Positions 18,211 to 44,917 of a stretch of 51,968 nt of DNA are shown piece by piece. How positions within the stretch are numbered: position 1 is the stretch's first letter; each line of letters opens with the position of its first letter. Under the pieces are notes generated by a model that saw only the letters and a program-made list of their open reading frames with translations, had not been told where the DNA came from and did not search any database. The position numbers and the translations under genes are program-made. Location of the stretch: positions 196,315 through 248,282 of the forward strand of contig NZ_KB893168.1 of assembly GCF_000374005.1 (NCBI RefSeq), in the 5' to 3' direction. The DNA comes from Kiloniella laminariae DSM 19542 (GTDB lineage: Bacteria; Pseudomonadota; Alphaproteobacteria; Kiloniellales; Kiloniellaceae).

Positions 18211-18228
18211 GAGACTTAGGGAGGTTCT

Positions 18229-19220: not shown

Positions 19221-19230
19221 ATGTATACAT
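19221..19230. promoter_or_regulatory. Candidate GntR/FCD operator near doeA
   Basis: ATGTATACAT is a perfect 10-base palindrome 28 bases upstream of the doeA start. It shares the GTATAC core with the palindrome near ehuB, about 103 bases away. One site on each side would let a single regulator control both transcripts. Confidence 0.6.
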
Positions 19231-19257
19231 CTAAGATTATGCATTTCGGAGCACTAA

Positions 19258-20445: not shown

Positions 20446-20447
20446 AC

Positions 20448-20543
20448 ATGCTGTACCAGGCAATGTCTCCCCACTATGCTATCGCAGCCCAATGCGATGC
20501 GGATTGGGAAATGCTGGAAAAACTGAAACAGTCATTACACTAG
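20448..20543 (+). CDS. Possible 31-residue small ORF between doeA and the GntR gene
   Basis: The frame opens two bases after the doeA stop and closes 15 bases before the GntR start, filling most of the gap. It would encode MLYQAMSPHYAIAAQCDADW and an 11-residue helical tail. No ribosome-binding site is visible, so it would rely on coupling to doeA. No family is recognised. It may equally be chance or the remnant of a lost gene. Confidence 0.25.
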   Translation: MLYQAMSPHYAIAAQCDADWEMLEKLKQSLH

Positions 20544-20558
20544 TTACGGAGTCAGAAA

Positions 20559-22602: not shown

Positions 22603-23240
22603 CACTTCCCCTCCGCCTGGATTATCATTTTATACTCATGCCCCATTTGTTATCACTGGACAAGACAACCTAATGAACTTAGGATTCGATCAACACAAAA
22701 AAGCAACAAGACTCACGAACAGAAAAAATAAAAATACAACTACTGAGTGTTTAAATTTTGATATATCCATTAAAATACAATTCACTATTGGAATTTAATA
22801 ATGATGAGAATATTAAAAACACAACCTCTTAACAAAATAAAATATACAATATAAAATTTAACAATATAATGCCGCGGGAAAACTGGACAACTAAAGTTCC
22901 AGAGCAACACAAAAATACGAACAGGTCAGTGCATATGAAAAACCCATTTACATCCGACTGCAGGCGCGCGATTTGCACCACAGGAATGTCACGCCATCTC
23001 ACCTGCTTTGCATCGTATTTTCATAGTCTGACATTGATCCAGCCTGATTTGACCTAGGGACACATCAGGGGTTTTATTGCAACCAGTCCTCACAGTGGTA
23101 CCAAAATTACGCCACTATAGACGGGTAAGCGAAACCGAACCGGTCTGAATGGATCCAAAGGAATCTGGGCAACGTATCCAAAATTCATACAAGACGGTGC
23201 AATCCGAAGGCAGGATTGCTAAATTATAAAATAATCAGGG
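22603..23240. promoter_or_regulatory. Divergent intergenic region upstream of the NRPS operon
   Basis: This 638-base gap holds no convincing gene. Bases about 22670-22870 are very AT-rich, unlike the surrounding coding DNA, which is typical of a silenced or strongly regulated promoter. A short AGTGG...CCACT repeat lies near 23095-23117 with TATAGA just after. The NRPS1 start at 23241 has only AGGG directly against the ATG, a poor ribosome-binding site, so translation may be weak or leader-dependent. I saw no clear Fur box. Confidence 0.5.
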
Positions 23241-26200
23241 ATGTCTTCAGTCGTGCACAACACTATATACAACCGCTTCCTCGCGCAGGCTCGTAAAACC
23301 CCTCAGCACCTTGCTCTTGTTGATAGCAAAACAAGCCTGACTTATGAAGAGGTCGCCAATGCCGTGGCGCAGTTGGCAAGCCAGATCCAGCTGTCTTCAC
23401 AAGAAAAAAGTGATGCACAAGACCAAAATGAGGATGTGGTCTTTGTCTGTCTTGATCGCTCCTGTGAGATGATTATTGCCTCGCTTGCCAGCCTCTCTGT
23501 TGGCCGCCCCTCTGTTGCAATTGACCCACGCCATCCGACATCACATAAAGAGTTTCTGCTGGAGAATGCCGGTGGCGGTCTCGTCATTACAACAAGATCC
23601 CATCAAAATGATTTTGCCTCTCTCGCAACTGAACCACTTATATATGAACAGCCCAACATCAAGCCGCTCCCCAATTTTTCCTGTGTAGATCTCCGGCCTG
23701 AAGTTCTCCGGCCTGAAGTTCTCCGGCCTGACGTAACGTCTTTTCTGATCTACACTTCTGGATCAAGTGGCCGCCCCAAGGGTGTTGAGCTAACGCAAGA
23801 TGCCATGTTACGCACTTCAGATGCCGTAGTACTAAAGCTGGGCATAACCGTGCAATCACATGTTTTGCACTATGCAGCCCCCGCATTTGATTCTGCGGTG
23901 TTGGAGTGGGTTCTGGCGCTTACGAACGGCGCCAGCCTTTTCCTTGTGCCGGATGACAAAAGAGACGATCCCCGAGGACTGTCAGATTTTCTCGTGGAAA
24001 AGAAGATTACACAGGCAATTCTGCCCTCGGCCCTTTTGCCCTACCTTCCCCTGTCCGAGCGCTATGCCCTTGAAGGACTGGTCGTCGCCGGAGATGTTTG
24101 CCCGGAAAAAACACTGCACAACTGGGCAGAAAAATATCGGCTTTTCAACGGTTATGGGCCAACTGAAATCACGGTTTGTGCAAGCCTGACCCTGATCAAA
24201 CCGGGACAAAGCGCCTCGATAGAAGATGCGACGGCAAATGTTCGTTACAGGATCGAGGATAAAAACGGTCAAGAAAGTGATGAGGGAGAGTTAGTTCTCG
24301 GAGGTCCCCAGGTAGCCCTCGGATATCGGAATGCCCCGGCACTTACAGAGACTGCTTTTTACTCTGATTCCTCCGGCACCAGATGGTACCGCACAGGTGA
24401 TCTGGTGCGACGGATTCAGGGCGGCGAAGACGGGATAAGCGGAGCAAAAAACAAAATCATTTTTGTCGGCCGCAAGGATTTCCAGGTAAAGATCAGGGGA
24501 AACCGCGTTGAACCCGGAGCAATCGAGCAGTTGATCTGCACTCTCGACGAGGTTGAAAATGCCCAGATCCTAACCCCGGAAACGAGACAAGGAGACAAAT
24601 ATCTGCTTGCATTCCTTGCCACCAAAGCCCCCCAGAAAGATATTCAGGACAAGGTTCGCAACCTGATCGCCTCAAGCTTTCCAGACTACTACATGCCGAC
24701 AGATTTCATCTGTCTTGAGCATTTTCCACTTACGGCAAATGGAAAGATCGACCGGAAGGCGCTTTTAAGTACACATCAGAAACCGGGTCCTGTCGCCAGT
24801 TCCGATCTTCTGCTGTCTCTGTTTCATAGGGAACTCGGCCACGAAAAACTGGGTGAAGATGATGATTTCTTTAAGATGGGCGGCAACTCGATTGCTCTCA
24901 TCCGCCTGTTAAACGCCATCAAGGAGAATTTTTCCTGCGACATTAGCGGAAAACAATTCCGGAAAGATCCGACAGCGGCTGCGGCAAGACGATTGCTGGA
25001 ACAAGACATTCCCGCTGCCCTGCCAGCAGTGACAGTACAGACACGTCCCGAACACCCGTTTCCCCTTACGCCCCAACAAAATGCAGCCTGGTTCCTTCAT
25101 CAGAGCAATCCGGACAGCAAAGCCTATCTGGCAGAAGCATCCATCACCTTTAAGGGTACCTTTTCTCCTCTGGCCCTCGAAAAAGCCCTCAACAAGATTA
25201 TCCAGCGTCACGAGATATACCGCACGATATTCATTGAGCAAGATGGCGAGGCGCTTCAGGAAGTTAAAGCTGCTTTTAAGTTAAAACTTGAGCAGGTGGA
25301 TTGCACGACGACTGCCGAAGAAGCGCGCCCGCGCAAAATCGCCCGGCTTTTTGAAACCGCTCTTCCCGGAATCAGCGATCTGGGGCAGTTGCCCCTTGCC
25401 CGTTTTCTTTTGATCCGCTTTGCCGATGATCTTCATGTCCTGTTACATCAGGAACATCATATCATTCACGACGGCTGGAGCGGCAGTGAATTCACCAATG
25501 AAATGCTGAATTTCTATCGCTCAGAAGTCGACCCTGCCTTTGAATACAAGCCGTCTCCTGTTCCCCAGTATCTTGATTTCGCCCGGGAACAGGATCAGTT
25601 CCTTGCCTCAGATGTGGCTGAAGAGCAGCTCGGTTTTTGGCGCAAGCAGCTGGAAGGTTGCCCCAACGGGGTGCGTCTGTTTGGTAAAAAATCTCAAGCA
25701 CTGGGTTTTGAAGGCGCCTCCCAGCGCATGATTTTTACCCGGGACCAATGGGACCGGCTGGAAGAAACCTGCCAGACTTTGGGCATCAGTACCTTCTGTT
25801 ACACCTCGGCTGTCCTGCTTCTCTGCCTGTCACGCTATTCGAACCAGACGGACATCGCTTTTGGCTCCGCCTTTGCCAACCGGAACCGGGGAAACAGCCA
25901 CGCTATTCTGGGGATGCTCGTCAACACCATCGTGTTGCGACAGGATCTTGCGAAGGCATCAACCTTCGAACAGCTTCTGCTCAACACCAGGCAGATGATA
26001 GAGGACGCCCAACATAATGAAGAGTACCCCTTTGGCAAGATTGTTGCGGCTCTCAACCCCGAGCGAGAAGGAGGAAGCAATCCCTTTTTCAATGTTCTGC
26101 TTGGCTTCCATGACACGCCAATCTCAGCCACAACCCCCGAAAACCTGACATGGGTTAAGGATGAGACCATGGAATCAAGATCTTCCAAGTTTGATCTTGA

Positions 26201-28193
26201 TTGTCTCGTCGTACCAAGAAAAGGATCGTTTCACGCAGAAGATGAAGTCCATTTTCTTTGGGAATACAGAAGTGATATTTTCACAACTCAGGAAATAACC
26301 CTTTTTCTGGAGAGCTTTAAAGAACTGTTCCTCGGCATGCTGCCATCGCAGAAGAGGTCTCTCCAATCCCTTCCCGTACCCTCCCTCGCCCAGCAACAAA
26401 AGTTGCTGGTCTGGTCGCAGGGAAAACAAGAGAGCTTCGTGCAAAACTCCCTTGTGTCGGCAATCAGCCATCGTGCAAAGACAAGACCGGAGCACTGTGC
26501 CCTGATAAACGGCCAAACCCGGCTTACCTACGCTGAGCTGGAAGAAGCAGCAAACGAACTGGCCTTGAAGCTTTCGTCCCTTTCACTCGAACCGGGGGCG
26601 ATCGTCGGACTGGAACATGAGCGTGGCAACGCCCTGGTCATTGCCATGCTTGCAGTCTGGAAAGCCGGAGCCACCGTGCTGGTACTTGATCAAAACCTGC
26701 CCCGGGCTCGGCTGGACTACATTCTGACCGAAGCAAGGCCACAGGTGATTTTATCAGCGACCCAGGAAGTTCACTTGATTCCAGAGAATTCCTCTGGTTC
26801 GCTCAACAGCTTTTCCTCCTCCGCCTATATCATCTTCACCTCCGGCTCTACCGGACAGCCAAAAGGGGTGGTGATTTCCCACCGTTCCTTGCTTAACCTT
26901 TGCCATTTTCACCAGGACACCTTCAGTCTCGATGAAAAAAGCAAAGGGATCAGCATTGCCCACCAAAGTTTTGATGCCTATATGGCCGAGGTCTGGCCGC
27001 TGTTGCTTGCCGGAGGCAGTGTTGTCTCCCTGGACGACAGCGAACGGAACAATCTGGGCCTGATGGCCGACCTTTTTGAGCAACATGCCATTACTCATGC
27101 CTGCCTGTCTACCGGGCTGTTTGAAACCGCGATGGCAACAGATTTCCTCTGGCCAATCAGCCTGAAAACCCTTCTGACTGGTGGAGACAGGCTTGGTGCC
27201 GTGACCCTTCCCCCGGATTGCGGATTTCGCCTCTTCAATATGTACGGGCCCACCGAAACAACGGTTGATGCGCTGTGTTTTGAAGTTTGCCAAAGTTACG
27301 AAACCCCGCCCCCTGTTGGTCACCCGATAACCAACGCATCAGCTTATATCATTTCCAAGGGAAAAACTCTCTGCCCTGTTGGTGTCGAAGGTGAACTGCT
27401 CATCGGTGGTGCCGGGGTGGCACAGGGATATCTGGGGAACACTCGACTAACCGAAGAACGCTTCATTGACGGCGCGGAACTCTTTCCTGCTGTTGAGGGA
27501 CGGCTTTATCGCACGGGGGATATGGCCCGCTGGAATGCCTCGGGCCAGATCGAGTTTATCGGACGTCAGGATGACGAGATAAAAATCCGGGGCTACCGGG
27601 TTGACCTGAGCGAGATTACAACCCGATTACAGGCTGATGAAAAGGTATCTCAGGCCGCCTGCCTATACGAAAACGGCTCACTTGTTGCCTACGTTGTACC
27701 ATCAGAAAAAGAACAGAAAGCCATAAGTTCCGGCTCAATTAAACCCCAGAAACTGGCGAGATATCTCTCTGGACTCCTGCGAAAATCCCTGCCGGACTAT
27801 ATGCGCCCCAACGCCATTATGGTGTTGGACTCCTTGCCGCTGACACCCCAGGGAAAACTGGATCGCCGGGCCTTGCCCTCTCCTTTCATTCCCACGGATA
27901 CCAAGGCTGTTGCTGAAAACCCGACGGAGCATAAGGTCACAGAAATCTGGCAAGCTGTTCTTGATCGCCAGGAAATTTCCGTCCTCGACAATTTTTTCTC
28001 GATCGGAGGACACTCTCTTCTGGCAATCAAGATCATTTCCCGCTTCCGGAAAGACCTGGGTGTGACCATGAAACTGGAAGATTTCTTCACCCACTTTTCG
28101 ATCCGGGAACAGGCCAACTTTATTCTTGCTGTCAACAGCCTTCGCAATCCTTCCGAGTTAGAAGGCAATGTCGTTGAAGAGGGAAGCCTGTAA
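23241..28193 (+). CDS. Nonribosomal peptide synthetase 1, A-T-C-A-T (initiation plus one extension module)
   Basis: The protein has 1650 residues. A1 spans about 1-515 (YTSGSSGRPKG at 171, NGYGPTE at 303, catalytic Lys in TANGKIDR at 502). T1 has its phosphopantetheine Ser at 550 (GGNS). C spans about 610-1045 with the active site HHIIHDG at 739. A2 spans about 1060-1560 (FTSGSTGQPKG at 1199, NMYGPTE at 1333, Lys 1539). T2 has its Ser at 1592. It has no N-terminal condensation domain, so it should load the first residue. My manual reading of the specificity codes gives DSLIVAGVCK for A1 and DAACLGMVDK for A2; neither matches a code I know well. The acidic tail VVEEGSL could bind the docking domain of the next enzyme. 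The stop overlaps the next start by one base. No epimerisation domain is seen. Confidence 0.95.
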   Translation: MSSVVHNTIYNRFLAQARKTPQHLALVDSKTSLTYEEVANAVAQLASQIQLSSQEKSDAQDQNEDVVFVCLDRSCEMIIASLASLSVGRPSVAIDPRHPTSHKEFLLENAGGGLVITTRSHQNDFASLATEPLIYEQPNIKPLPNFSCVDLRPEVLRPEVLRPDVTSFLIYTSGSSGRPKGVELTQDAMLRTSDAVVLKLGITVQSHVLHYAAPAFDSAVLEWVLALTNGASLFLVPDDKRDDPRGLSDFLVEKKITQAILPSALLPYLPLSERYALEGLVVAGDVCPEKTLHNWAEKYRLFNGYGPTEITVCASLTLIKPGQSASIEDATANVRYRIEDKNGQESDEGELVLGGPQVALGYRNAPALTETAFYSDSSGTRWYRTGDLVRRIQGGEDGISGAKNKIIFVGRKDFQVKIRGNRVEPGAIEQLICTLDEVENAQILTPETRQGDKYLLAFLATKAPQKDIQDKVRNLIASSFPDYYMPTDFICLEHFPLTANGKIDRKALLSTHQKPGPVASSDLLLSLFHRELGHEKLGEDDDFFKMGGNSIALIRLLNAIKENFSCDISGKQFRKDPTAAAARRLLEQDIPAALPAVTVQTRPEHPFPLTPQQNAAWFLHQSNPDSKAYLAEASITFKGTFSPLALEKALNKIIQRHEIYRTIFIEQDGEALQEVKAAFKLKLEQVDCTTTAEEARPRKIARLFETALPGISDLGQLPLARFLLIRFADDLHVLLHQEHHIIHDGWSGSEFTNEMLNFYRSEVDPAFEYKPSPVPQYLDFAREQDQFLASDVAEEQLGFWRKQLEGCPNGVRLFGKKSQALGFEGASQRMIFTRDQWDRLEETCQTLGISTFCYTSAVLLLCLSRYSNQTDIAFGSAFANRNRGNSHAILGMLVNTIVLRQDLAKASTFEQLLLNTRQMIEDAQHNEEYPFGKIVAALNPEREGGSNPFFNVLLGFHDTPISATTPENLTWVKDETMESRSSKFDLDCLVVPRKGSFHAEDEVHFLWEYRSDIFTTQEITLFLESFKELFLGMLPSQKRSLQSLPVPSLAQQQKLLVWSQGKQESFVQNSLVSAISHRAKTRPEHCALINGQTRLTYAELEEAANELALKLSSLSLEPGAIVGLEHERGNALVIAMLAVWKAGATVLVLDQNLPRARLDYILTEARPQVILSATQEVHLIPENSSGSLNSFSSSAYIIFTSGSTGQPKGVVISHRSLLNLCHFHQDTFSLDEKSKGISIAHQSFDAYMAEVWPLLLAGGSVVSLDDSERNNLGLMADLFEQHAITHACLSTGLFETAMATDFLWPISLKTLLTGGDRLGAVTLPPDCGFRLFNMYGPTETTVDALCFEVCQSYETPPPVGHPITNASAYIISKGKTLCPVGVEGELLIGGAGVAQGYLGNTRLTEERFIDGAELFPAVEGRLYRTGDMARWNASGQIEFIGRQDDEIKIRGYRVDLSEITTRLQADEKVSQAACLYENGSLVAYVVPSEKEQKAISSGSIKPQKLARYLSGLLRKSLPDYMRPNAIMVLDSLPLTPQGKLDRRALPSPFIPTDTKAVAENPTEHKVTEIWQAVLDRQEISVLDNFFSIGGHSLLAIKIISRFRKDLGVTMKLEDFFTHFSIREQANFILAVNSLRNPSELEGNVVEEGSL
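23691..23732 (+). repeat. In-frame 15-base tandem repeat in the first adenylation domain
   Basis: CTCCGGCCTGAAGTT occurs twice in full and a third time in part, encoding LRPEV-LRPEV-LRPDV just before the A3 motif. It lies in a loop region, so copy number changes would keep the frame. Confidence 0.9.
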
Positions 28194-31100
28194 TGGTCGT
28201 CTCTCTTATCCAACAGGCAAGATCCGAAGGTATCGAGCTCTACCTGCAAGACGGAAACTTGCGTTTCCGGGCGCACGGACAGCCTCTAAGTCCGGAATTG
28301 AAACAGAGCCTGCAAACCCGGAAGTCTGCGATTATCAGCTTCCTGCAAGATCATCAGGAGCCTGTAACAACTGGCCCTGAACCACAGCCGGACAAGTATG
28401 GTTCACCAGCTCCACTGACCCATTCACAAAAGAGAATGTTTTATTTGAATCAGCTGCTTGAAGGCGGATCTCAATATAACATGGCAACATCTTTCAGGCT
28501 CAGAGGGCAGCTGGATGTTGAAAAGCTGGAGGATATACTCACCCAGATCCTTGCCCGCCACACGGTACTGCGCACAAGATACAGCCTCATCGATGGTGAG
28601 CCTCGCCAGAGTATCTCCAGCGACTGCGCCCTCCCTCTGCAAAACCACCCACTTTCTCCCAGCTCCCCGCTCGAGGAAACCCTCGCCAAACTCGCCGAAA
28701 TTCCCTTTGATCTTGAAAAGGAAATTCCTGTCAGAGTGTATCTGGTGCAAGAAGACAGCGACCGAAACACCCTGCTTTTTGTGTTTCACCATATCTGTTT
28801 TGACGGATGGTCCTATCAGATCCTGTTCCGGGAAATTTCGACTCTCTTCAGCGGGAAAACTCTCGCTTCCGTCCCTCTCCAGATGGTCGATATCGCCCGC
28901 TGGCAAAACGATAACCCTGACAGCTATCTCTCGCGCTCCTCTCTGGACTTCTGGCAGAACACTCTCGCTGGTGTTGAATCCCTGAATTCTGTTCCGACTG
29001 ACTACCCGCGCCCGCCGGAACAAAGCTATCAGGCTCAATCCCTGACCCGCATGCTCTCGCCAGAGCTTGCAAAGCAGCTACAGCTCTTTGCCCAAAAGCA
29101 ACAGATCACAACTTTTTCCCTCCTGCAGGCGGCCTTCTCTCTTCTGATTTCCCGCTGGTCAGGCCGAAGCGAAGCGGTAACAGGAACGCCGGTGTCAGGC
29201 CGCCATACACCTGACGTGGAAGGCATGATTGGTTTGTTCGTCAATACCCTGCCTTTGCGGATCAAACTGCAAGCCGAAGAAAGTTTCAGACACTACATCA
29301 CACGAATTCAGAACCAGCTTCAGGATACCTTCCGCCATCAGGATATTCCCTTTGAGGTTATTGTCGGTGAACTGGTCAAGGACCGGGATCCCGGGTTCCC
29401 TCCGGTCATTCAGATCCTCTTTGCCATGAATAGCGGCACGACGGATCAGCTGGATATTCCCGGTGTCATCTGTGCCCCCCAGACTGTTTACCGAAATAAT
29501 GTAAATTTCGAACTTGAGCTCTATGTTGATGATCACGAAGACAACATAGAATTTTCCTGGAACTATCTTGAGAAACTCTATTCAGCCTCAACCATTGCCG
29601 AGCTGCACAACAGCTTTGTTACCTTGTTGTCCAGAGCCCTGACCACCCCGGACACAGCGGTCTCCTCGCTTTCGATCTGTCCCGAGGCTTCACAAGCCGC
29701 AATTGCACGCTGGAACAGTGATCATCTGCCGGTCAAAGAAGGGGAAACCTTCCTTGATCGCTTTTCCCGCTCAGTAAAAAATCATCCCCAGGCAATCGCT
29801 TGCAAAACAGAGCAAGACAGCTGGAGCTATCAGGAGCTAGACAGGCTCAGCAACGACCTTGCTGGACAGCTCGTGGCACTGGGCGCAAGTCCTGACGTTC
29901 TGATCGGGTTATCTCTTGCGCAATCGTTCCAGATGATTCTGGCCATACTGGCAATCCACAAAGCCGGAGCAGCCTATGTTCCGCTTGATCCCCAATTCCC
30001 ACCTTCCCGGCTCCGCCAGATCCTCAACAGCTGTCGCCCCTCTATCATCCTAGGGAATGCTGACAGTCCCGAGTTGCTTCATCAGGAAACCGGGTATTTT
30101 CTTGATCTAGACAGGATCACACTCTCTCGGGATGTGGTGGACGGCAGTCATCAGTCCATCAGCGCGACATCGGATAATCTGGCTCCGGATGATCTGGCTT
30201 ATGTCATCTTTACTTCTGGATCGACCGGAACACCGAAAGGGGTCATGGTCGAACACGGCAACCTGAACAATTTCCTTGCCGGCCTGGAACGGGATATGCC
30301 CTTACAACCGGGTATGGTTGTACCGCTGATTACCGCCGCCTCTTTTGATGTGCATGTTGTCGAAGTCCAGCATGTTCTCGCTTGCGGCGGAACGATTGCA
30401 CTCCTGGATTTACCCGCCCTGACTGATCCGGAAATCATGGCCCGGCAATTTGAAGAGCTGAAAATCTCCCATGCCCACGCAACTCCAGCAACCTGGCAGA
30501 TGTTGATTGATCACAACTGGAAACCCGCCACTCCCCTCAAGCTTTACAGTGGTGGTGACAGTCTTCCCTGCCATCTGAAAGACTCTCTGCTTGCGACCTG
30601 TCCCGGCAACAGATTGTGGAATTTTTACGGACCGACAGAAGCCACAGTCTACGTCAGCATGCAGGAAATGACTTCTCAGGCAAAAACGGTAAGCGTTGGC
30701 CGAGCACTTCCGAACAATCGGTTTCATATCCTAGATGACAGCATGAACCCGACACCGCTCGGGGTAACCGGAGAGCTTTTTATCTCGGGGGTCAACCTCG
30801 CCAGAGGTTATTATGACCAGGAAGAACTCACCTCTGAACGCTTTGTTGCTCACCCTCTGACTGGTGAACGCCTCTATCGTACCGGCGATCTTGCCCGCTG
30901 GCGGACTGGTGACAAGGCAGCGGCCATAGACGACCGCGTCGGCACCGTTGAAATACTCGGACGGCTGGATTTTCAGGTTAAACTCAGAGGTCACCGTATT
31001 GAGCTTGGCGATATTGAAAAGCATCTTTGCGCCCACCCTGCCGTGCTTGAAGCAGTGGTTCTCCTCACAGGAGAAACACGAGAGAGGGAGCAGCTCACTG

Positions 31101-31600
31101 CTTTTGTCAGAATTCCTCCAGGGGATAGCGGTGCGCATCCTTCGGCCAGCGAGACAAGTCCGCAGCAAATTAGGGATTTTCTGTCCAGCAGACTGCCTTC
31201 TTACATGATACCGCAGCAGATCATTCCGCTCGACAGCTTTCCTCTGACCGCCAATCGGAAAACCGACCGAAAAGCCCTGCTGGAAACAAAACAAGATTTC
31301 TCAACAACAAAACTGCTTCATCAGGAACTCCCTTCCTCCGAAATCGAATGTGTGCTGGCCCTGATTTGGCAGGATCTCCTGGATAAAGCCCAGGTTGATA
31401 TTCAGAGCAGCTTTTTTGAACTCGGCGGACACTCACTTCTCGCAATTAAGATGCTGAGCCAAGTCGAGAATAAAACCGGCGTCAAGATATCGCTCCGCAG
31501 TCTCTTGAGCACACCAAATATTTTGGGACTGGCCCAGCTCGTCAGCTCGGTTCTCGCCTCCAGAAATCTGTCGGAAACGACCGTTGAAACCCTGATATAA
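28193..31600 (+). CDS. Nonribosomal peptide synthetase 2, docking-C-A-T
   Basis: The protein has 1135 residues. Residues 1-55 form a TubC-type beta-hairpin docking domain (GIELYLQDGNLRFRAHG then helices). C spans about 70-490 with the intact HHICFDG at 199. A spans about 520-1035, with FTSGSTGTPKG at 673, NFYGPTE at 810 and the catalytic Lys at 1023 in NRKTDR (Arg replaces the usual Gly). T carries its Ser at 1081 in LGGHS. The specificity code I read is DVVHYGFVYK, which I cannot match to a known amino acid. A 15-residue insert (near GDKAAAIDDRVG) lies between motifs A7 and A8. The C-terminal tail SETTVETLI is acidic, as expected for a short linear docking motif. It starts within the TAATG overlap with NRPS1, so the two are coupled, and it should add the third residue. 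Confidence 0.95.
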   Translation: MVVSLIQQARSEGIELYLQDGNLRFRAHGQPLSPELKQSLQTRKSAIISFLQDHQEPVTTGPEPQPDKYGSPAPLTHSQKRMFYLNQLLEGGSQYNMATSFRLRGQLDVEKLEDILTQILARHTVLRTRYSLIDGEPRQSISSDCALPLQNHPLSPSSPLEETLAKLAEIPFDLEKEIPVRVYLVQEDSDRNTLLFVFHHICFDGWSYQILFREISTLFSGKTLASVPLQMVDIARWQNDNPDSYLSRSSLDFWQNTLAGVESLNSVPTDYPRPPEQSYQAQSLTRMLSPELAKQLQLFAQKQQITTFSLLQAAFSLLISRWSGRSEAVTGTPVSGRHTPDVEGMIGLFVNTLPLRIKLQAEESFRHYITRIQNQLQDTFRHQDIPFEVIVGELVKDRDPGFPPVIQILFAMNSGTTDQLDIPGVICAPQTVYRNNVNFELELYVDDHEDNIEFSWNYLEKLYSASTIAELHNSFVTLLSRALTTPDTAVSSLSICPEASQAAIARWNSDHLPVKEGETFLDRFSRSVKNHPQAIACKTEQDSWSYQELDRLSNDLAGQLVALGASPDVLIGLSLAQSFQMILAILAIHKAGAAYVPLDPQFPPSRLRQILNSCRPSIILGNADSPELLHQETGYFLDLDRITLSRDVVDGSHQSISATSDNLAPDDLAYVIFTSGSTGTPKGVMVEHGNLNNFLAGLERDMPLQPGMVVPLITAASFDVHVVEVQHVLACGGTIALLDLPALTDPEIMARQFEELKISHAHATPATWQMLIDHNWKPATPLKLYSGGDSLPCHLKDSLLATCPGNRLWNFYGPTEATVYVSMQEMTSQAKTVSVGRALPNNRFHILDDSMNPTPLGVTGELFISGVNLARGYYDQEELTSERFVAHPLTGERLYRTGDLARWRTGDKAAAIDDRVGTVEILGRLDFQVKLRGHRIELGDIEKHLCAHPAVLEAVVLLTGETREREQLTAFVRIPPGDSGAHPSASETSPQQIRDFLSSRLPSYMIPQQIIPLDSFPLTANRKTDRKALLETKQDFSTTKLLHQELPSSEIECVLALIWQDLLDKAQVDIQSSFFELGGHSLLAIKMLSQVENKTGVKISLRSLLSTPNILGLAQLVSSVLASRNLSETTVETLI

Positions 31601-31628
31601 ACACGAGCAATTCGCAGGAAACGATAAA

Positions 31629-35708: not shown

Positions 35709-35771
35709 TCACACCCTGTTCAGGTCCTCGACCGGCTTCAGGTAGAACTCCAGGAATAAGTATCGAGAGCA

Positions 35772-35801
35772 GCAGGAGCCGAAAAAAAAAACGGCCCCTG
35801 C
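35772..35801. other. Hairpin with A10 loop between NRPS3 and the NRPS-PKS gene
   Basis: GCAGGAGCCG and CGGCCCCTGC pair over 10 bases with one mismatch around a loop of ten A residues. It lies in the 116-base gap between the two large genes. There is no T-run after it on the plus strand, so it is not a standard terminator. It could affect the mRNA between the two assembly lines. Confidence 0.45.
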
Positions 35802-35824
35802 ACAGCTCCAAGGGAATTATAGCA

Positions 35825-38800
35825 ATGTCAGTTACACAATCTCTTATCGCAACTTTCAAAGCCGTCTGTGCTCGTCATGCAAATTCACCTGCTGTAAGAG
35901 AAAACGATCACAAACTTGATTACAGAGAGCTCGACGAGCTTTCAGACCGTATCGCCCGGAACTTGGTGTTACTCGGAATCAGTAAAGGCCATTCCGTGGG
36001 CCTCTTCCAGCCCCGCAGCCTCCATCTTCCCGCCCTGATACTCGCTGTTCTGAAATTGGGAGCCAACTATGTTCCCATCGACCCCAATGCTCCTGCTTCC
36101 CGCCAGAAAATCTGCCTGGAGGAAGCCGATGTCAAACTTCTGGTTTGCCAGAAACCTTCGCCAGATCTGGGATTGCAGCAAACCACCCTCACCGATCTTT
36201 TGAAACCGGACACAGCCGGGTTTGTTTCTCTTCCTGAAACAGATCCCGGTCACCTCGCCTGTATCCTTTTCACCTCCGGATCTACGGGAACACCCAAAGG
36301 CGTCGAGATCGAACAGGCCGGTATTCTGCGTACAACCGCAAATCCTGATTATCTGGAGATCTTGCCCGGCACCCGATTTGCCAACCTTTCCAACCCGACA
36401 TTTGATGCCCTGACTTTTGAGCTGTTCGGCGCTCTGCTGAACGGCGGGACCCTGGTGATCTTTTCTCAGGAACAGGTGACAGACCCGTTTTTGCTGGCAC
36501 AGGGGCTGCAACAGGAAAAGATCGATACCCTGTTCCTGACAGCTGCGCTGTTTAATGTTCTGGTTGATCTCAGTCCGAACTGTCTTGGTACGGCCCGTGA
36601 TGTTCTGGTTGGCGGTGAACCACTTCGCCCTGCCTCTGTTGCCGCTTTCTTCCAGGCGAACCCGAAAAGCACCTGCCGTCTGCACAACGGCTATGGCCCA
36701 ACAGAATGCACCACCTTTTCACTGACCCACCAGATCCATCCGACCAAGGTCCAGCAATACCTTGACACCGGGAATATTCCGATTGGCACCCCGATCGATG
36801 CTACCGCTATACATATTATCGGGGATGACGGGGCTGCGGTTCCTGAGGGTGCGACAGGGATGCTCTATATCGGCGGAGCAGGACTTGCCCGCGGATATTG
36901 CAACAATCCAGAGCGAACCGCCGAGAGTTTTGTCTCTCTCCCCGCGATTACACCAGATCGGCTTTATCTCACAGGGGATCTGGTGCGTCGCAACAGCGAA
37001 GACCTGATTGAATTTATCGGGCGGCAAGACGGCCAGATCAAAGTACGGGGCCACAGGATTGAACTGGCTGAAATAGAAAACCTGCTGGCGCAACATCCCG
37101 AAGTATCCCAGGTTTGTTTGACCTGTGAACAGGACCAGAACAGCCAGAGGCTGACCGCCTATCTGGTCGGAAAAAAAGCCTGTGATCTGACCCGGAAGGA
37201 TTTCCGGCAGTTTCTGAGCCTCCATTTGCCTCCCTACATGATTCCGCAGCAGTTTTTTCAAATAGACACTCTTCCCCGTACAGCCAATGACAAGGTTGAC
37301 CGGAACCAGCTGTCCCGCAGCGATGCAAAAGCAATTGGCAGAGAGGAGCAGGATGTCGAAATCAGCGACAGCCTTCTGTCATCAGTGCTGGAGATATGCC
37401 GGGAAGTATTGGGTTATGCTATTAAAGCAGAAGAGGCTTTTATTGCCGCGGGTGGAGACTCCCTCGCAGCCATGCGCATTATCGGAAAGATCCGGCAGCA
37501 GACGTCGCACCAGGCAACGGTGGGGCAACTTCTAGGTGCCTCCTCCATTTCCGCTTTTATTCCCTGTCTTGTAAAACAGGATCTCCTACCTGCCCTTTCC
37601 GGTCCTCTCACCGCCAATAAGGCTTATCCCGCCGCTCCGGAACAAAACCGGCTGCTTTTTTTGCAACGTCTGATACCGGACTCCATTGCCTATAACGCTC
37701 CTTTTGTTTTTGACGTAACAGGCTCCCTCTCAATCGGGACACTTGAAAAAGCTCTGATGCTTCTTGTGGCCAGACATCCGGTTTTACGCACCATTTTCGA
37801 AGACAGAAATGGTATCAGCTATGCTGTACCCCGCGAAAACACCATCTTTGAATTAAAACAGTGTGATACCCTTTCTGCTGCACAAGACTATTGCGATCAG
37901 CCCTTTGATCTGGGCAAGGATCTTATGGTAAGGGCAGCTCTGGCCCCAACAGCATCAGAACAGCACAGGCTATTTCTCTGTTTTCATCACATCGCGATTG
38001 ATGGCCAGAGCATCAACCTTCTCTTCGCCGATCTGTCAGCTCTCTATTCTGCTCTGCAACAGAATACCGCCGCCCCGGAACTGTCCGGCAAAGCCGGTTA
38101 TGCTGACTTCGCAGCGGCAAGACAGCTTTTCAATAACAGTCCGGCAGCCCGCGACCAGTTGCAAAACTGGCGCAAGAGATTGGAACCAGCCCTTTCCGGC
38201 CGGGTCTTTACCCCCCTCTTTGCAACAAAATTCACAGATAAATCCACCAAAGGTGGAACAGGGGATTTTTACGAGTACACAATAGAGCCTCAAATCTGGG
38301 AACCGCTGATTGCCTTCACCCGATCAGAAGGCATCACTCTCTTCTCTCTTCTGCTTTCCGCTTTTTCCCTGCCCCTGGCACAGTTGACCGGACGAGATGA
38401 CATCGCCATCGGCACCCCCCTGGCCAATCGGGGTTTGGGAGAGTTCGAGAATATCGTCGGCATGTGTGTCAACAGTCTTCCTTGCCACCTGCCGCTCAAG
38501 ACGAAGGGGTCACTTCGCACTCTTCTTCACCAGACACATAAACATACGACTGAAATTTTTCAGGATCTCGACATCGATTTTGATAACCTTGCGTCCCTCT
38601 TCAGCAAGCGTTCACAGGAAAACCCTCTGTTTGATGTCATGATAGTGCTGGAAAATACCCGCCCTGAAACATTGCAGTTGCCTGGTACCCAAACAACGGC
38701 TGTTACCTATTCCAACGGCAGCGCCAAATTCCCGCTGACACTCTTTATTACAGAACGGGATAAGGGCGCCCATCTGGTCTTCGAGTACAACAATGCTCTG

Positions 38801-41800
38801 TTAACCCTGCATCAGGTCAAATATCTGGCCTCCGGCCTCGAAGTTCTTCTCTCAAAAATTCCAACCGTTCTAAATCAGTCTGTAGCTGACATCTCCCTTC
38901 TGCCCACTGCGATAACCCAACAACTGGAAAGCTGGGAAGGCTCTACCGTGCCTGACGACCCAAGTGATGACCTGATCACCCGCTTTCAGCAACAGGTTGA
39001 CAGACGTCCTGCCTTCCCCGCCATTCAGATGAACGGCAGCGATATCAGCTATCATGATCTTGCCGGGCAGGTTGATCATCTGGTTCAACGCCTCAAAAAA
39101 CGCGGCCTGGGCAGCGGGCACCGTATCGGACTTTGCTTTGACCGTTCTCCCGAAATGATCGTCGCACTGCTGGCCGTGTTAAAAAGCGGTGCAGCCTATG
39201 TTCCGCTGGATCCGGCCTATCCCGGAGAACGCCTGAACTATCTGGTTGAAGACAGTGATATCTCCCTGATCTTGACCCACGGGAAAGCCACCGACAAAGC
39301 CGGGGCTTTTCTTGCCAACTGTGACGTTGAAACCCTCCTCCTTGATCAGAAGGAACTGGAAAAAGACCCGGAGGAAGCAAATCCGTTATCCCAAAGCCCT
39401 GTGCAAGACCCGACAATAGCTGCCGAAGATACTGCCTATGTGATGTATACCTCAGGCTCGACCGGCCTACCCAAGGGAGTCATCATTTCTCACAGTGCGC
39501 TGGCCAACTATCTGGAACATGCAAACCAGCAGTATTGCCAACAGATTGATCTGGCCATTGTCAGCTCATCCCTGAATTTTGACGCGACCATTACAACACT
39601 TCTGGCACCACTATACAGCGGGAAAACAATCCAGCTGTTACCCCAGGATGGCAAAGAGGTCGAGGCTCTTGCCCGGCTTCTGAACAAGACAACAAAACGC
39701 CTCCTTCTCAAGATCACCCCCAGCCATCTCTGGGCTCTGCGCGGGTATCTGGAAACAGCCCCTTCTACGACAGCCCATTGTTTTGTCATCGGCGGGGAAA
39801 GCTTCCCCTGGGTTCTGGCCAGTCATTACCGAACTCTCTTCCCCAAAGCAGAAATCATCAACGAATACGGCCCGACAGAAACTGTCGTTGGCTGCAGCGT
39901 TTATGCCCTGCCAAAAGAAGATCTTTCCAGTCAAATATCCTATCGGGATGTTCCCATAGGCCAACCCATCGCCAACACTCAGATCAAAATCCTGAATGCC
40001 CGGGGAAAACGCTGTTCGATCGGCATTCCCGGAGAAATTTTCATTGGCGGTGCTGGGGTTGGTCAGGGTTATTTCAGACGCTCCGATCTGACCGGTGAAC
40101 GTTTTCCCACTTTGCGATACGGCAAGCGCTACTACGCCAGCGGCGATTTCGGCTTCTGGTCCGAAGACGGCCAGTTACATTTTATCGGCAGGCGGGACGA
40201 ACAATTAAAAGTACGGGGATACCGGATTGAAACTGCCGAGGTGGAAAGCCACCTTCTCTCCCTGCCCGATGTTGAGCAGGCCGCAGTTGCGGTCAAAACA
40301 TCTGAACTGGGGGATACACGATTTATTGGCTACATCGTTACAAAAAACAGCAACCTGACATCGGCAACACTTCGGGAACAGCTCCAGAAAATCTTGCCGT
40401 CTCATATGATACCGGACAGCTTTGTTCATCTTGACCAACTGCCTTTTACCCCCAATGGCAAACTGGATCGTGAGGCCCTTCCCCTGGCACCACAACCCGC
40501 TATTGAAACTCCTGCCCCGCAGGAAAGTAAAAAACTTCAAACCCTTCTCGGTAATGAAATAAACAATGCCCTGGGCTATGAAGTTGATCCTGATATGAAC
40601 TTTTTCGAGGCAGGAATGAACTCCCTCCTCCTGATGAAGGTTCACAGTGAGCTAAAGTCAAAACATAAATTAGACCTGGAACTTGTTGATTTTTTTACCT
40701 ATTCAAACATTTCTTCCTTGGGCTCCTACCTGGGTAATGGCCAGATTGAAACAGAGCAGCTTAAGGAGGAGAAAAAAGCGGGCCTAGAAGAGGAAATTGC
40801 TATTATTGGTATGGCAGTCCACTTGCCCAACGCCCCGGATTTGGTCAGTTTTTGGGAAAAAATACAGCAAGGAGATGACTGTATTTCCCATAATAACACT
40901 TCGAATGTTACCTCCCTTACCGAAAACAGAACCTCCCGGGACAGTCTTCCCGGGGCAACTGATCGACACCGCGTTTCTTCCGTGTCTTCCATGGACGGGT
41001 TGTTTGATTTTGATCCCGCCTATTTTGGCCTGACTGCCAGTGAAGCCGAAGTGATGGACCCACAGCAGCGCCATATCCTTATGGGTGCCGTTCATGCCCT
41101 GGAAAATGCAGGGTTGCCGCCAACAGCGACAACCGGACGTGTCGCTGTTGTGGTCAGCTCCAGTGAAAACCGGTATCAGCAGGCCATTTTAAAATCCGGT
41201 GCTGCACCACGGGACGGTTTCCAGATGTCCCTGCTGAACGAAAAGGATTTTGTCTCCAGCCGGATCGCCTATCACCTCAACCTCAATGGCCCGGCACTGA
41301 CAGTTCAATCCGCCTGCTCCAGCTCCCTCTCGGCCATTCACATCGCCTGTCAGCAACTTCGGCTGGGAGAAAGCGATATCGCCCTAGCAGGAGGAGTTTC
41401 TGCTGATCCGGAACATCTGGACGGCTATGAGTATCGGCAGGGAAGGATATATTCCAGGGATGGCAGATGCCGGTCCTTCAGTCAGGAAGCCAGCGGTACT
41501 GTACCTGCCAATGGCATGGGCATGGTCGTGCTCAAACCTCTCTCAAAGGCACTGGCTGATAACGATCGCATTTATGCCACCATCAAAGGAAGTGCGATCA
41601 ATAATGATGGCCGGGACAAAGTCAGCTTTTTTGCCCCTTCGGTAAAAGGTCAGTCCAGTGTCATCACCCAGGCCATGACAAATGCCGGGGTTGCGGCCGA
41701 ACAGATCAGCTATGTCGAAGCCCATGGAACCGCGACGGAAATCGGCGACCCCATCGAGGTCGAAGCCCTGACCCGCGCCCATCGGAAATCCAGCAGCAAA

Positions 41801-44800
41801 AACGAACATAAAAATGGCTATTGTGCCCTGGCCACCGTTAAGAGCCAGATGGGGCATCTGGCAGCTGCAGCAGGCGTCGTCGGCCTGATCCGGACAGCTC
41901 TGGGGCTGTATCACTCTATCCTGCCCCCCAGTATCGGGATTGGCTCTGCCAATGAACGTATCGCTTTTGACAGTTCCCCCTTTTACCTCAACAAAACCGC
42001 CCGGCACTGGCCAGGACAAACAAGAATTGCTGGCGTAAGCAGTTTTGGCATGGGCGGAACCAATGCCCATTTCATCTTGTCCAGTGCTCTGCAACAGGTC
42101 AAAAACAGGGCTGCATCAGCACATTTCATTCCTTTCTCGGCCAAATCCCCAACGGCTTTGCGGTGCAGTCTTGAGAATGCCTTTGCCAAGCTCAGCGGAG
42201 ATCTGATTGATCTGCAAGAACTTGCGACCATACAGAACAGCGGGAAAAGACATTACCCCTGTCGGGCAGGGTTCCTCTGTCAGTCCAGAGAAGAAGCTCT
42301 TGCCAGACTGTCGGATCTGATCAGTGGCAAGGACATGGCAGCTCCAGATCAAAGCCCTCAAGGCAACAATCAAGATCTGCGCTGGCTGGCGGGTGAAAAT
42401 CCAACTGATTCTGCAGCACATGGCAGACTTCCTCTCGATACCCTTCCCTATCCTTTTGACAAGAAAGAATATCGCTTTACCCCTGCCATTCAGGAGATCC
42501 CCTCTGCTGGTCTGCGGGCCCCGAAGGAGCAGTGGCTGTATCAACAGGGCTGGACATCATTTCAGCAGCTGCAAGCCAGTGAACAAAGACCTCAAACCCT
42601 GATCGGGATCGGCCTTCCTGCTGACTTGAACGGGATGATGGCTGCTCACTGCCAGAACTACCATTCCTCTTCACCAGAAAACCTGCCCGTACTTTTGGCT
42701 GATCTTCCCCGGAATACAGACATTGCCATTCTCTTTGTTACCGAACCGACAGATGAAAATGCCCTGCTGACCCAGATAGAAATTCTGCAGGCCTGGACCA
42801 ATCAGCGTAAAGATCAGCCACTGGACTTTACCCTTATCACTTCGGGGACAGCCAAACTTTCCCCCGGAGAACAGCTTGTTCCCCAGGTCGCATTGCTGAA
42901 CGGGCCTTTATTGGTAACGGCCGCAGAGCATCCGAATATCCAGTCTCGTCTGATTGATGTTGAGCCGGGAGAACTGACTTTATCCCGCCTCCTCAGCCTG
43001 CTGGATAATCTTTCCGGGCGAAACGGACACTTTGCCCTGCGCGGAGACACGCTCTACAGCAAGACCTATAGCCCCATGCTTGCCCCACGCTTTTCCTCCC
43101 CAAGAACGCACAAGGGAGTCTATCTTGTTATTGGTGGCCTGGGTGGCATCGGCCAGCACGTCATGGATCATTTTTCCCAACATGAGCAGGTTACACTGGT
43201 CTCGCTTTCCCGTTCCGGAACTAGTCGCTCCCTAGACCCCGAAAATGTAAAAAAATGGGGAAAAGCCGATCACTACGCCCTGACCGCGGACATTGGCAAG
43301 CCACAAGACGTCAGGGCTGTTGCCGAAGAGCTGCAGCAACATTTCGGACAGCTGACCGGTATTGTCCATCTGGCCGGTCAGGCCGGAGGTGGCCTGCTCA
43401 GCCAGAACACCTCCAAGTCCCTGAAACAGGGGCTGGCCGCAAAAGTTACCGGATTGCAAAATCTGGAACGCTACCTGCTGCCTCTTTCACCGGAGTTTGT
43501 CCTCTGTTTCTCATCCATGTCAGCCGTCTTTGGTCTGCCGGGTCAAAGTGACTATGCCGCGGCCAACAGCTATATGGATGCCTGGGCAGAAAATATGTCC
43601 CGGAAGGTCACAGCTATAGAAAATCCAGCCCGCTTTATCTCCATCAACTGGCCAACCTGGGCGGGAACAGGAATGGCTGCTCACCATGTTTCTTCTTCTG
43701 TCATCGAGAAAGACTATGCCCTTACTGCGGCTGAAGGGCTGGAGATGATGGAGGTCGCCCTGTCTCTGGGACTGCCAAGACTGCTGATTTCCCCGGTAGA
43801 ACTGCGGAAAATCGAAGAGCACCTCAAAACCAAAAACCGTAAATCTCGGGATAGTTCCCCTTCAGGTAACACGCCTCCCGATAGCGTTTCAGCTGCTTTC
43901 ACGAAAGTTCTCGGTCTTGAAGAGCTGGATGAGGAGATGGATTTTTATGATCTGGGAGGCGACTCTCTTTCTGCCCTCGACCTTCTGGATCTGCTCGATC
44001 CTCTCTATCCCGGCAAACTGACGCTCGCCGATATATTGAAACTTGGCAGCGCCTCCGCCATACACAATTATCTCACAGCCGAAAGTGATGCAGACAAACC
44101 GATCGGCTCTGCCTCTTCCCCGAATGACGAAAGTCTGGTGTTGCTGCGCTCTGGTGCCGCTCCGTCAATCTGCTGTATCCACCCTATTGGGGGCGATCTC
44201 TCCGGCTATCGTCCTCTGGTTTCTCATCTTCCGGCTTTTCAGCAGGTGCAGGGCTTTAGAGATCCGGTTCTGGCAAACCCGCAGGCCCAGGAACGCAGTG
44301 TAGAGGAACTGGCACAGCACTACCTTGAACTTCTTGGCGACAAGCTGCCCGAAAGCCTTGTCGGCTGGTCGTTCGGAGCCCTGATCGCCTGGGACATGGC
44401 GAGACAACTCGAACAGCAGGGCCGTCCTCTACCGTCTCTCGTCCTGATTGACCCTCCCGTCATCGGGCAGCAGCAAAACAGCACTTTTGATGCCAACAGG
44501 GTCTTTTTACAGGAACTGGCGCAGGCTCATCCCGATTTTGCAGACAAATCCGTTTTGCAAAATCAATCCTCGGAAAAAATCACCCGCTTGCCTTCTTTAG
44601 GCGACAGCTATATCGAAGCCGTCATGTCTGCCTGCGCAAGAAATGCAACGGCAATGACTTCTTTCCATCCCAAGGCACAAATATCGGCCCGAACCACCCT
44701 TGTGATTGCCGCGGAAGGAGAAAAACCAGAACCGGGTTACTCCAATCGTCATGACTGGTTACAGGACAGCTGGCAGAAATATTTCAAATTTCCTCTGGCG

Positions 44801-44917
44801 AGCCGGGTTCTCCCCGGTGATCACTACACGGTCATGACTGGTACAAACGCCATCCAGATCGCTGATCTGATTTTAACGCCCGATGACCTTTTCCTAGCAC
44901 AAGAGTCCAGCAGATGA
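35825..44917 (+). CDS. Hybrid NRPS-PKS, A-T-C-A-T-KS-KR-T-TE, without acyltransferase
   Basis: The protein has 3030 residues from the ATG at 35825 (AAGGGA upstream). An in-frame ATG at 35705 overlaps the NRPS3 stop, but the added 40 residues are Arg/Lys/Ser-rich and unlike any NRPS. A1: FTSGSTGTPKG 149, NGYGPTE 288, Lys 490. T1: Ser 546. C: HHIAIDG 721. A2: YTSGSTGLPKG 1208, NEYGPTE 1346, Lys 1546. T2: GMNS, Ser 1600. KS about 1655-2075 with Cys 1831, His 1967 and His 2011 (KSQMGH). A linker follows directly, with no acyltransferase. KR about 2430-2640: GGLGGIG 2437, Ser 2566, Tyr 2577. T3: Ser 2714. TE: Ser 2849 in GWSFG, His 3000. The A1 code DAFFLGGTFK is close to valine codes (DAFWIGGTFK), so Val or Ile is likely. 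The A2 code DATIVGEVGK is unclear. KS plus KR without DH predicts a 4-amino-3-hydroxy acid end. Confidence 0.95.
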   Translation: MSVTQSLIATFKAVCARHANSPAVRENDHKLDYRELDELSDRIARNLVLLGISKGHSVGLFQPRSLHLPALILAVLKLGANYVPIDPNAPASRQKICLEEADVKLLVCQKPSPDLGLQQTTLTDLLKPDTAGFVSLPETDPGHLACILFTSGSTGTPKGVEIEQAGILRTTANPDYLEILPGTRFANLSNPTFDALTFELFGALLNGGTLVIFSQEQVTDPFLLAQGLQQEKIDTLFLTAALFNVLVDLSPNCLGTARDVLVGGEPLRPASVAAFFQANPKSTCRLHNGYGPTECTTFSLTHQIHPTKVQQYLDTGNIPIGTPIDATAIHIIGDDGAAVPEGATGMLYIGGAGLARGYCNNPERTAESFVSLPAITPDRLYLTGDLVRRNSEDLIEFIGRQDGQIKVRGHRIELAEIENLLAQHPEVSQVCLTCEQDQNSQRLTAYLVGKKACDLTRKDFRQFLSLHLPPYMIPQQFFQIDTLPRTANDKVDRNQLSRSDAKAIGREEQDVEISDSLLSSVLEICREVLGYAIKAEEAFIAAGGDSLAAMRIIGKIRQQTSHQATVGQLLGASSISAFIPCLVKQDLLPALSGPLTANKAYPAAPEQNRLLFLQRLIPDSIAYNAPFVFDVTGSLSIGTLEKALMLLVARHPVLRTIFEDRNGISYAVPRENTIFELKQCDTLSAAQDYCDQPFDLGKDLMVRAALAPTASEQHRLFLCFHHIAIDGQSINLLFADLSALYSALQQNTAAPELSGKAGYADFAAARQLFNNSPAARDQLQNWRKRLEPALSGRVFTPLFATKFTDKSTKGGTGDFYEYTIEPQIWEPLIAFTRSEGITLFSLLLSAFSLPLAQLTGRDDIAIGTPLANRGLGEFENIVGMCVNSLPCHLPLKTKGSLRTLLHQTHKHTTEIFQDLDIDFDNLASLFSKRSQENPLFDVMIVLENTRPETLQLPGTQTTAVTYSNGSAKFPLTLFITERDKGAHLVFEYNNALLTLHQVKYLASGLEVLLSKIPTVLNQSVADISLLPTAITQQLESWEGSTVPDDPSDDLITRFQQQVDRRPAFPAIQMNGSDISYHDLAGQVDHLVQRLKKRGLGSGHRIGLCFDRSPEMIVALLAVLKSGAAYVPLDPAYPGERLNYLVEDSDISLILTHGKATDKAGAFLANCDVETLLLDQKELEKDPEEANPLSQSPVQDPTIAAEDTAYVMYTSGSTGLPKGVIISHSALANYLEHANQQYCQQIDLAIVSSSLNFDATITTLLAPLYSGKTIQLLPQDGKEVEALARLLNKTTKRLLLKITPSHLWALRGYLETAPSTTAHCFVIGGESFPWVLASHYRTLFPKAEIINEYGPTETVVGCSVYALPKEDLSSQISYRDVPIGQPIANTQIKILNARGKRCSIGIPGEIFIGGAGVGQGYFRRSDLTGERFPTLRYGKRYYASGDFGFWSEDGQLHFIGRRDEQLKVRGYRIETAEVESHLLSLPDVEQAAVAVKTSELGDTRFIGYIVTKNSNLTSATLREQLQKILPSHMIPDSFVHLDQLPFTPNGKLDREALPLAPQPAIETPAPQESKKLQTLLGNEINNALGYEVDPDMNFFEAGMNSLLLMKVHSELKSKHKLDLELVDFFTYSNISSLGSYLGNGQIETEQLKEEKKAGLEEEIAIIGMAVHLPNAPDLVSFWEKIQQGDDCISHNNTSNVTSLTENRTSRDSLPGATDRHRVSSVSSMDGLFDFDPAYFGLTASEAEVMDPQQRHILMGAVHALENAGLPPTATTGRVAVVVSSSENRYQQAILKSGAAPRDGFQMSLLNEKDFVSSRIAYHLNLNGPALTVQSACSSSLSAIHIACQQLRLGESDIALAGGVSADPEHLDGYEYRQGRIYSRDGRCRSFSQEASGTVPANGMGMVVLKPLSKALADNDRIYATIKGSAINNDGRDKVSFFAPSVKGQSSVITQAMTNAGVAAEQISYVEAHGTATEIGDPIEVEALTRAHRKSSSKNEHKNGYCALATVKSQMGHLAAAAGVVGLIRTALGLYHSILPPSIGIGSANERIAFDSSPFYLNKTARHWPGQTRIAGVSSFGMGGTNAHFILSSALQQVKNRAASAHFIPFSAKSPTALRCSLENAFAKLSGDLIDLQELATIQNSGKRHYPCRAGFLCQSREEALARLSDLISGKDMAAPDQSPQGNNQDLRWLAGENPTDSAAHGRLPLDTLPYPFDKKEYRFTPAIQEIPSAGLRAPKEQWLYQQGWTSFQQLQASEQRPQTLIGIGLPADLNGMMAAHCQNYHSSSPENLPVLLADLPRNTDIAILFVTEPTDENALLTQIEILQAWTNQRKDQPLDFTLITSGTAKLSPGEQLVPQVALLNGPLLVTAAEHPNIQSRLIDVEPGELTLSRLLSLLDNLSGRNGHFALRGDTLYSKTYSPMLAPRFSSPRTHKGVYLVIGGLGGIGQHVMDHFSQHEQVTLVSLSRSGTSRSLDPENVKKWGKADHYALTADIGKPQDVRAVAEELQQHFGQLTGIVHLAGQAGGGLLSQNTSKSLKQGLAAKVTGLQNLERYLLPLSPEFVLCFSSMSAVFGLPGQSDYAAANSYMDAWAENMSRKVTAIENPARFISINWPTWAGTGMAAHHVSSSVIEKDYALTAAEGLEMMEVALSLGLPRLLISPVELRKIEEHLKTKNRKSRDSSPSGNTPPDSVSAAFTKVLGLEELDEEMDFYDLGGDSLSALDLLDLLDPLYPGKLTLADILKLGSASAIHNYLTAESDADKPIGSASSPNDESLVLLRSGAAPSICCIHPIGGDLSGYRPLVSHLPAFQQVQGFRDPVLANPQAQERSVEELAQHYLELLGDKLPESLVGWSFGALIAWDMARQLEQQGRPLPSLVLIDPPVIGQQQNSTFDANRVFLQELAQAHPDFADKSVLQNQSSEKITRLPSLGDSYIEAVMSACARNATAMTSFHPKAQISARTTLVIAAEGEKPEPGYSNRHDWLQDSWQKYFKFPLASRVLPGDHYTVMTGTNAIQIADLILTPDDLFLAQESSR

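Follow-up and report, generated by a model that had tools for sequence, protein, structure and literature searches.

The operon spanning 23241..48115 very probably encodes a two-line depsipeptide pathway of the detoxin/rimosamide-like (DRL) kind, in an asparagine variety in which the two halves would be joined by an ester. We refer to the whole stretch of DNA analysed, 51,968 nucleotides of the Kiloniella laminariae DSM 19542 genome, as the window. By Pfam, three NRPS genes and a hybrid NRPS-PKS gene are followed in this operon by those for a methyltransferase, an exporter of the MFS type and a 4'-phosphopantetheinyl transferase (PPTase). The features of the operon are given below together with some relatives, of which G143 is an uncultured Rhodobacteraceae bacterium (contig CANNFQ010000014.1), G144 is the MAG BEIJ4, and G482 and G601 are further genomes with a related hybrid.

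21298..22605, minus strand: U435, uncharacterised, divergent and upstream of NRPS1, with a weak likeness to circularly permuted ATP-grasp type 2
23241..28193, plus strand: NRPS1, A-T-C-A-T, initiation and second residue; codes DSLIVAGVCK and DAACLGMVDK, not decoded
28193..31600, plus strand: NRPS2, TubC_N docking-C-A-T; code DVVHYGFVYK, not decoded
31629..35708, plus strand: NRPS3, weak TubC_N-like docking-C-A-T-TE; code DSWWFGIVWK, not decoded
34986..35702, plus strand: TE1, predicted ester-forming thioesterase (Ser1203, Asp1230, His1334)
35825..44917, plus strand: hybrid NRPS-PKS from its likely start, A(Val-type)-T-C-A(Asn-type)-T-KS-KR-T-TE, with no AT match
38969..40483, plus strand: second A domain of the hybrid (A2), code DATKVGEVGK (predicted Asn), divergent block at about residues 1220-1400
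40787..43804, plus strand: AT-less PKS module, from the KS through the linker to the KR; motifs of both domains intact, AT without a Pfam match
44126..44908, plus strand: TE2, predicted from Pfam, its GxSxG motif and homology to release the joined product
44914..46197, plus strand: class I methyltransferase, found only with Asn-type clusters
46194..47447, plus strand: MFS exporter, related to proteins of G143 (42%) and of the Pro-type locus G601 (48%)
47441..48115, plus strand: PPTase, EntD-like but below the EntD cut-off, with relatives in G143 and G482

A sequence-only reading of this DNA had given coordinates and reading frames for 23241..44917 that proved correct. Its description of NRPS1-3 as opening with A-T and closing with a TE agrees with the Pfam order A-T-C-A-T / C-A-T / C-A-T-TE, and the following hybrid, which it had opening with A-T, without an initial C, and closing with its own TE, is indeed A-T-C-A-T-KS-KR-T-TE. 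To this we add the TubC_N docking domain in NRPS2 (weaker in NRPS3), the AT-less PKS module and the Asn code of A2.

TubC_N was matched at the start of NRPS2 (E 1.7e-12, Pfam) and, below the curated cut-off, at the start of NRPS3 (2.6e-4). Docking of this type would therefore link NRPS1 to NRPS2 and NRPS2 to NRPS3, and end at the NRPS3 TE. No docking domain had been seen between NRPS3 and the hybrid, and we came to the same view: the hybrid ORF opens at 35705, its true start being most likely Met41 at nt 35825, which follows AAGGGAATTATAGCA and directly precedes the A domain; a start of this kind is likewise seen in the G143, G144 and Serratia hybrids.

We found no AT match in the hybrid PKS module with Pfam. 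PF00698 matches a single protein in the genome; this protein is free-standing, resembles FabD and is encoded near a FabF-like KS, and we read it as a probable FabD. The carrier preceding the KS (40517-40744) bears AGMNSL instead of the usual GGxSL; AGxNSL-like forms are also readable in G143 and Serratia, and not in G144.

Several published pathways share this layout. The pseudotetraivprolide cluster pipA-H of Pseudomonas entomophila likewise has a tetrapeptide line with a TE1 and a KS-KR hybrid without an AT. PipAB make the tetrapeptide and PipC the extended dipeptide; deletion of the PipB TE, or its Ser-to-Ala exchange, reportedly abolishes all full-length products, and both halves accumulate. 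FabD acylates the PipC carrier in vitro, and the AT domain is described as lacking in all PipC homologs of known DRL clusters. In DRL pathways generally, TE1 is described as forming an ester between the peptide of the first line and the beta-hydroxyl that the hybrid generates (all PMC12828459). The ppp cluster of Pseudovibrio brasiliensis also has three NRPS genes and a hybrid, PppD, with two TEs and a dedicated PPTase (PMC11796379, PMC12911931), and this alphaproteobacterium yields both the separate halves, pseudovibriamides A and C, and the depsipeptide that joins them, pseudovibriamide B (PMC11796379). The ppp cluster differs in a seven-module line 1, a hydroxyproline unit, the PppK hydroxylase and PppHIJ (PMC11796379, PMC12911931).

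The hybrid core of the detoxin, rimosamide, miramide and chitinimide clusters has the same A-T-C-A-T-KS-KR-T-TE order as the window, split over two proteins in miramide, and miramide and rimosamide also share the C-A-T-TE protein; as published, these clusters differ from ours in their proline-derived gamma-amino acid and TauD-like gene (PMC9503745, PMC8302735). Rimosamide-type pathways are reported to have a TE at the end of both systems, suggesting intermolecular transesterification, and the FR900359/salinamide TEs likewise belong to two TE-terminated lines in which one TE joins the products as an ester, with a different second line (PMC7794379; for comparison see also PMC9205934).

Assuming that the Kiloniella pathway operates like these relatives, line 1 (NRPS1-3, held together by TubC-type docking) would build a tetrapeptide on NRPS3. 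On line 2, the hybrid, Val would be joined to Asn, followed by malonyl extension of the Asn, with FabD loading malonyl in trans, and the KR would reduce the ketone to leave a beta-hydroxy acid on the last hybrid carrier. TE1 would then transfer the tetrapeptide onto the hybrid-bound beta-hydroxyl as an ester, and TE2 would subsequently free the depsipeptide. The methyltransferase would modify the product, perhaps at an uncapped N-terminus, the MFS protein would export it and the PPTase would activate the carriers. The role of FabD as a trans-AT, ester formation by TE1, release by TE2 and the order of release are assigned from the published relatives, above all by homology to pipA-H. We consider the joining step to be well supported by this homology, and the earlier expectation of two products or a final joining, as opposed to one colinear chain, gains support from the homologous pathways, which join their halves.

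TE1 itself is 35-59% identical to 12 relatives in an alignment of 13 sequences, with Ser and Asp invariant in all 13 and His present in 12, the thirteenth sequence ending at the edge of its fetched locus. By this homology and the catalytic Ser and Asp, the window would have the separate NRPS line ending in an ester-forming TE1 that marks DRL clusters, although homology is no proof of the acceptor that TE1 uses. A 2024 study reportedly deals with the chitinimide thioesterases.

One might instead expect two separate products, TE1 hydrolysing or cyclising the tetrapeptide and TE2 releasing a Val-Asn-polyketide acid, with no joining. GxSxG is present in both TEs (GASFG at NRPS3 residue 1201, GWSFG at hybrid residue 2887), and free halves are also known in relatives, namely pseudovibriamides A and C and, in the Pip pathway, ivprolide and pseudotetratide (PMC12828459). 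Nevertheless, we regard this outcome as unlikely, given that published relatives join their halves and that all eight loci found through the hybrid hold a TE1 gene in the cluster, though the length of line 1 varies among loci.

These eight belong to 13 loci examined, the window included, and a hybrid and a TE1-type gene lie in the same cluster in every one. The set consists of the window, G143, G144, two Serratia plasmids, five Streptomycetaceae plasmids, G482, G644 and G601. The five Streptomycetaceae loci were fetched through TE1 itself, so the fair count is 8/8, as only the loci found through the hybrid could have failed. The plasmid search with TE1 gave 165-217 bits for DRL-type loci and at most 99 for the other rows, among the best 20 of 149 records; the first eight of these rows represent two Serratia and five distinct Streptomycetaceae loci (four Streptomyces and one Streptantibioticus, the latter listed twice).

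With the KS-to-TE part as query, tblastn over plasmids (1293 records) matched the two Serratia plasmids in one piece at 35% identity, and these two loci were analysed from it; the five Streptomycetaceae were also listed. The neighbouring Serratia gene encodes a C-A-T-TE protein, and its TE and the TE of NRPS3 share 39% identity. Both Serratia plasmids (L026, L027) carry a Pro-like DRL gene pair and are typed as conjugative, and the C domain of the C-A-T-TE protein, as read in L027, has HHVVFEA, not HHxxxDG.

A scan of species genomes with the KS-TE protein did not confirm a relative. The same scan with a short KS alignment gave 29 loci, including G143 and G144. Architecture was viewed in eight of these, and the two-TE layout was seen in G143 (L028) and G144 (L029) and, within the stretch covered, not in the other six. 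Whole-genome searches at the level of phylum, class and order added G482, G644 and G601, with full-length KS-to-TE matches in 2/398, 3/385 and 1/61 genomes, respectively; the own genome is counted each time, and the counts are lower bounds as few candidates are scored per genome. Partial matches (KS only, or KS to KR) lie outside the 13-locus set, domains being viewed in 10 short loci.

In G482 (L107, L108) the hybrid has the first part of line 1 on one side and the C-A-T-TE gene on the other, with the TE1 gene downstream of the hybrid, so that gene order does not equal chain order there. This arrangement bears on another possibility, in which TE1 or another enzyme would pass the tetrapeptide to the Val amine on the first hybrid carrier to give a seven-unit amide chain. 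That amine would be free because the hybrid initiation module lacks a C domain. Yet no docking connects NRPS3 with the hybrid, the TE1 gene stands after the hybrid in G482 and published relatives form the ester to the beta-hydroxyl, and we judge an amide chain very unlikely.

Ten-letter codes were taken from a motif-anchored alignment at the positions presumed to determine A-domain specificity, and they stand as predictions. The first A domain of the hybrid has DAFFLGGTFK, and the form DAFFLGxTFK occurs in 13/13 loci; if this form is read as Val/Ile, the window has the Ile/Val domain characteristic of DRL hybrids. The A2 code is DATKVGEVGK in the window, G143 and G144, and a DVQ..A code in the other 10 of the 13 loci, with Serratia and one Streptantibioticus one position off the commonest DVQ..A form. 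We take DVQ..A codes to mean Pro, in line with the Ile plus Pro assignment for MirF; the Pro expected of DRL clusters at this domain is then not found in the window, G143 or G144. DATKVGEVGK was predicted as Asn in the zeamine cluster, an assignment that is itself a prediction (PMC3547906). Of the six full window codes it alone was matched in the open literature, and neither four shorter fragments of line-1 codes, taken from the window and G143, nor two complete codes from relatives were found there.

We observed that four of the six A-domain codes are identical between the window and G143 despite just 33-61% identity of the hybrid domains, which suggests selection on specificity. This argues against a degenerate cluster that makes nothing, as do the frames, all open, and the catalytic motifs of the C, KS and KR domains and both TEs, all in place; the four C domains, the only C-domain matches in the whole genome, all carry HHxxxDG. 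Degeneration might be suspected because searches of eight other genomes from the genus, one of which is 77% complete, gave no hybrid homolog, but we hold it to be extremely improbable. With a GC content of 51.9%, against 51.8% and 52.5% in the flanks, the composition of the cluster gives no sign of recent transfer.

In a tree of the hybrid minus A2 (12 rows, one of them Serratia), the three Asn-type loci form one side of a branch supported at 100/99. This branch between Asn and Pro type amounts to 0.40 changes per site on the hybrid minus A2, compared with 3.5 on A2 alone. Mean A2 identity is 27.8% (27-29) between the Asn-type loci and Serratia and 39.2% (38-41) between Serratia and the other Pro-type loci, whereas the same comparison is nearly equal elsewhere (first A domain 39.7 and 40.1%, C 31.6 and 31.1%, KS 52.4 and 53.6%). 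The drop is centred on the pocket, at hybrid residues of about 1220-1400 (18-31% against 45-57% in 60-residue windows). The C-terminal part of A2 is alike in both comparisons (38% and 37%), which may be the mere background level of A domains, and its tree does not hold the Asn-type rows together. A tree of 44 A domains sets the Asn-type A2 apart from the Pro-type at moderate support values (80/71 to 91/83). Common descent of the two types was not rejected by AU tests, whether for the whole domain (p 0.129), the core (0.249) or the C-terminal part (0.146). We therefore favour replacement of the A2 pocket core as the better, though unproven, reading, with fast divergence of the pocket as the alternative.

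The tailoring genes also set the cluster apart. The pipA-H pathway uses Ile/Val-Pro, hydroxylation by PipE, acetylation by PipDFG and N-acetylation by PipH (PMC12828459); the window, in contrast, combines the Asn code with a methyltransferase, and PipD-, PipE-, PipF- and PipG-like queries had no match in it. The PipDFG acylation genes appear to be optional, as they are reported missing from some published DRL clusters (PMC12828459). The GSCFA family, to which PipG belongs, is absent from the whole genomes of the window and G144, and its one member in G143 is on another contig. Its value as a marker is weak, because some Pro-type loci, L065 and G482 among them, likewise showed no GSCFA in the part fetched.

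A TauD-like hydroxylase is described as present in all known DRL clusters. No TauD-like dioxygenase was found in the window, the G143 and G144 stretches or their cluster contigs; TauD-family genes do occur on other contigs of the window genome (C13, C37, C1) and of G143 (C9), and none in G144. All five Streptomycetaceae loci, G482 and G601 have a TauD homolog, and in G644 the hybrid contig bears a TauD-family gene about 27 kb away, outside the fetched part. Neither Serratia plasmid yielded one. Since these plasmids combine a Pro-like code with no TauD, the idea that loss of the hydroxylase followed from the change of Pro to Asn is weakened.

The methyltransferase (427 residues) begins at the end of the hybrid gene in 3/3 Asn-type loci and in 0/10 other fetched loci, its orthologs directly after the hybrid being 63% (G143) and 53% (G144) identical. 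Among 385 class genomes it was found at E 1e-30 in its own genome only, and on plasmids as partial matches only. By sequence, the nearest protein of solved structure is a protein lysine methyltransferase (E 3e-24, over residues 26-255). Because line 1 begins with A-T, the N-terminus of its product should be uncapped; that of Pip is described as capped by a dedicated N-acetyltransferase (PMC12828459). The methyltransferase may act there, which is a guess, as any target of the ATP-grasp-like U435 would be. In G143 an ortholog of U435 with 40% identity lies immediately upstream of NRPS1, and both proteins fall below the PF14403 cut-off (E 0.055 and, in G143, 0.019); the contig of G144 ends inside line 1. 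The G143 order is as in the window: U435, NRPS1, NRPS2, NRPS3, hybrid, methyltransferase, MFS, PPTase.

Elsewhere in the window, an open-ended ORF of at least 2839 residues (2-8518, minus strand), rich in Ala, Leu, Glu and Lys and without a Pfam match, adjoins a small unknown protein and a CsgG-like protein (8674-9765) and could encode a large secreted or surface protein. The catalase-peroxidase gene katG (11693-13888) lies beside a LysR regulator gene (10538-11440). Genes for ectoine-type uptake and degradation occupy 14023-20445 (EhuB-like binding protein, permeases, ATPase, DoeA-like hydrolase, PLP enzyme, cyclodeaminase family). The stretch 19258-21250 may be accessory, as it has a second, weaker match on contig C24 of the same genome and congeners match it weakly.

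The idea of two lines is not in itself new, since the predicted layout matches the known DRL pathway type. The A-T-C-A-T-KS-KR-T-TE order of that type is present, with KS-to-TE homology to relatives. The Pro code and the TauD-like gene, for which we looked, are absent, and we therefore withhold strict DRL membership and place the cluster in a probable sister variety, defined by three loci, that by homology would work like DRL. We did not find an Asn-type DRL among the best-ranked matches in open full-text papers, subscription papers and preprints being outside the scope of the search. Within the literature searched, the Asn code, the cluster without a TauD hydroxylase and the methyltransferase directly after the hybrid are new.

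Published members of the class are described as protecting Bacillus cereus against blasticidin S, with the Ile/Val-proline-malonate piece given as their conserved part. That the present product is likewise an antibiotic antidote would be conjecture. We put at an even chance the broader proposal of a separate Asn branch, in which a swap of the A2 pocket replaced Pro by Asn, genes for the proline hydroxylase and for acylation are absent and the methyltransferase took over tailoring; its conserved warhead would be Val-(4,6-diamino-3-hydroxy-6-oxohexanoic acid), which may act on another target than the proline antidotes do. If true, a core rebuilt on Asn with other tailoring would show which features are needed for activity. 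It would also be a natural case of one A domain changed with the downstream KS, KR and joining TE retained, and would widen the class to unstudied bacteria.
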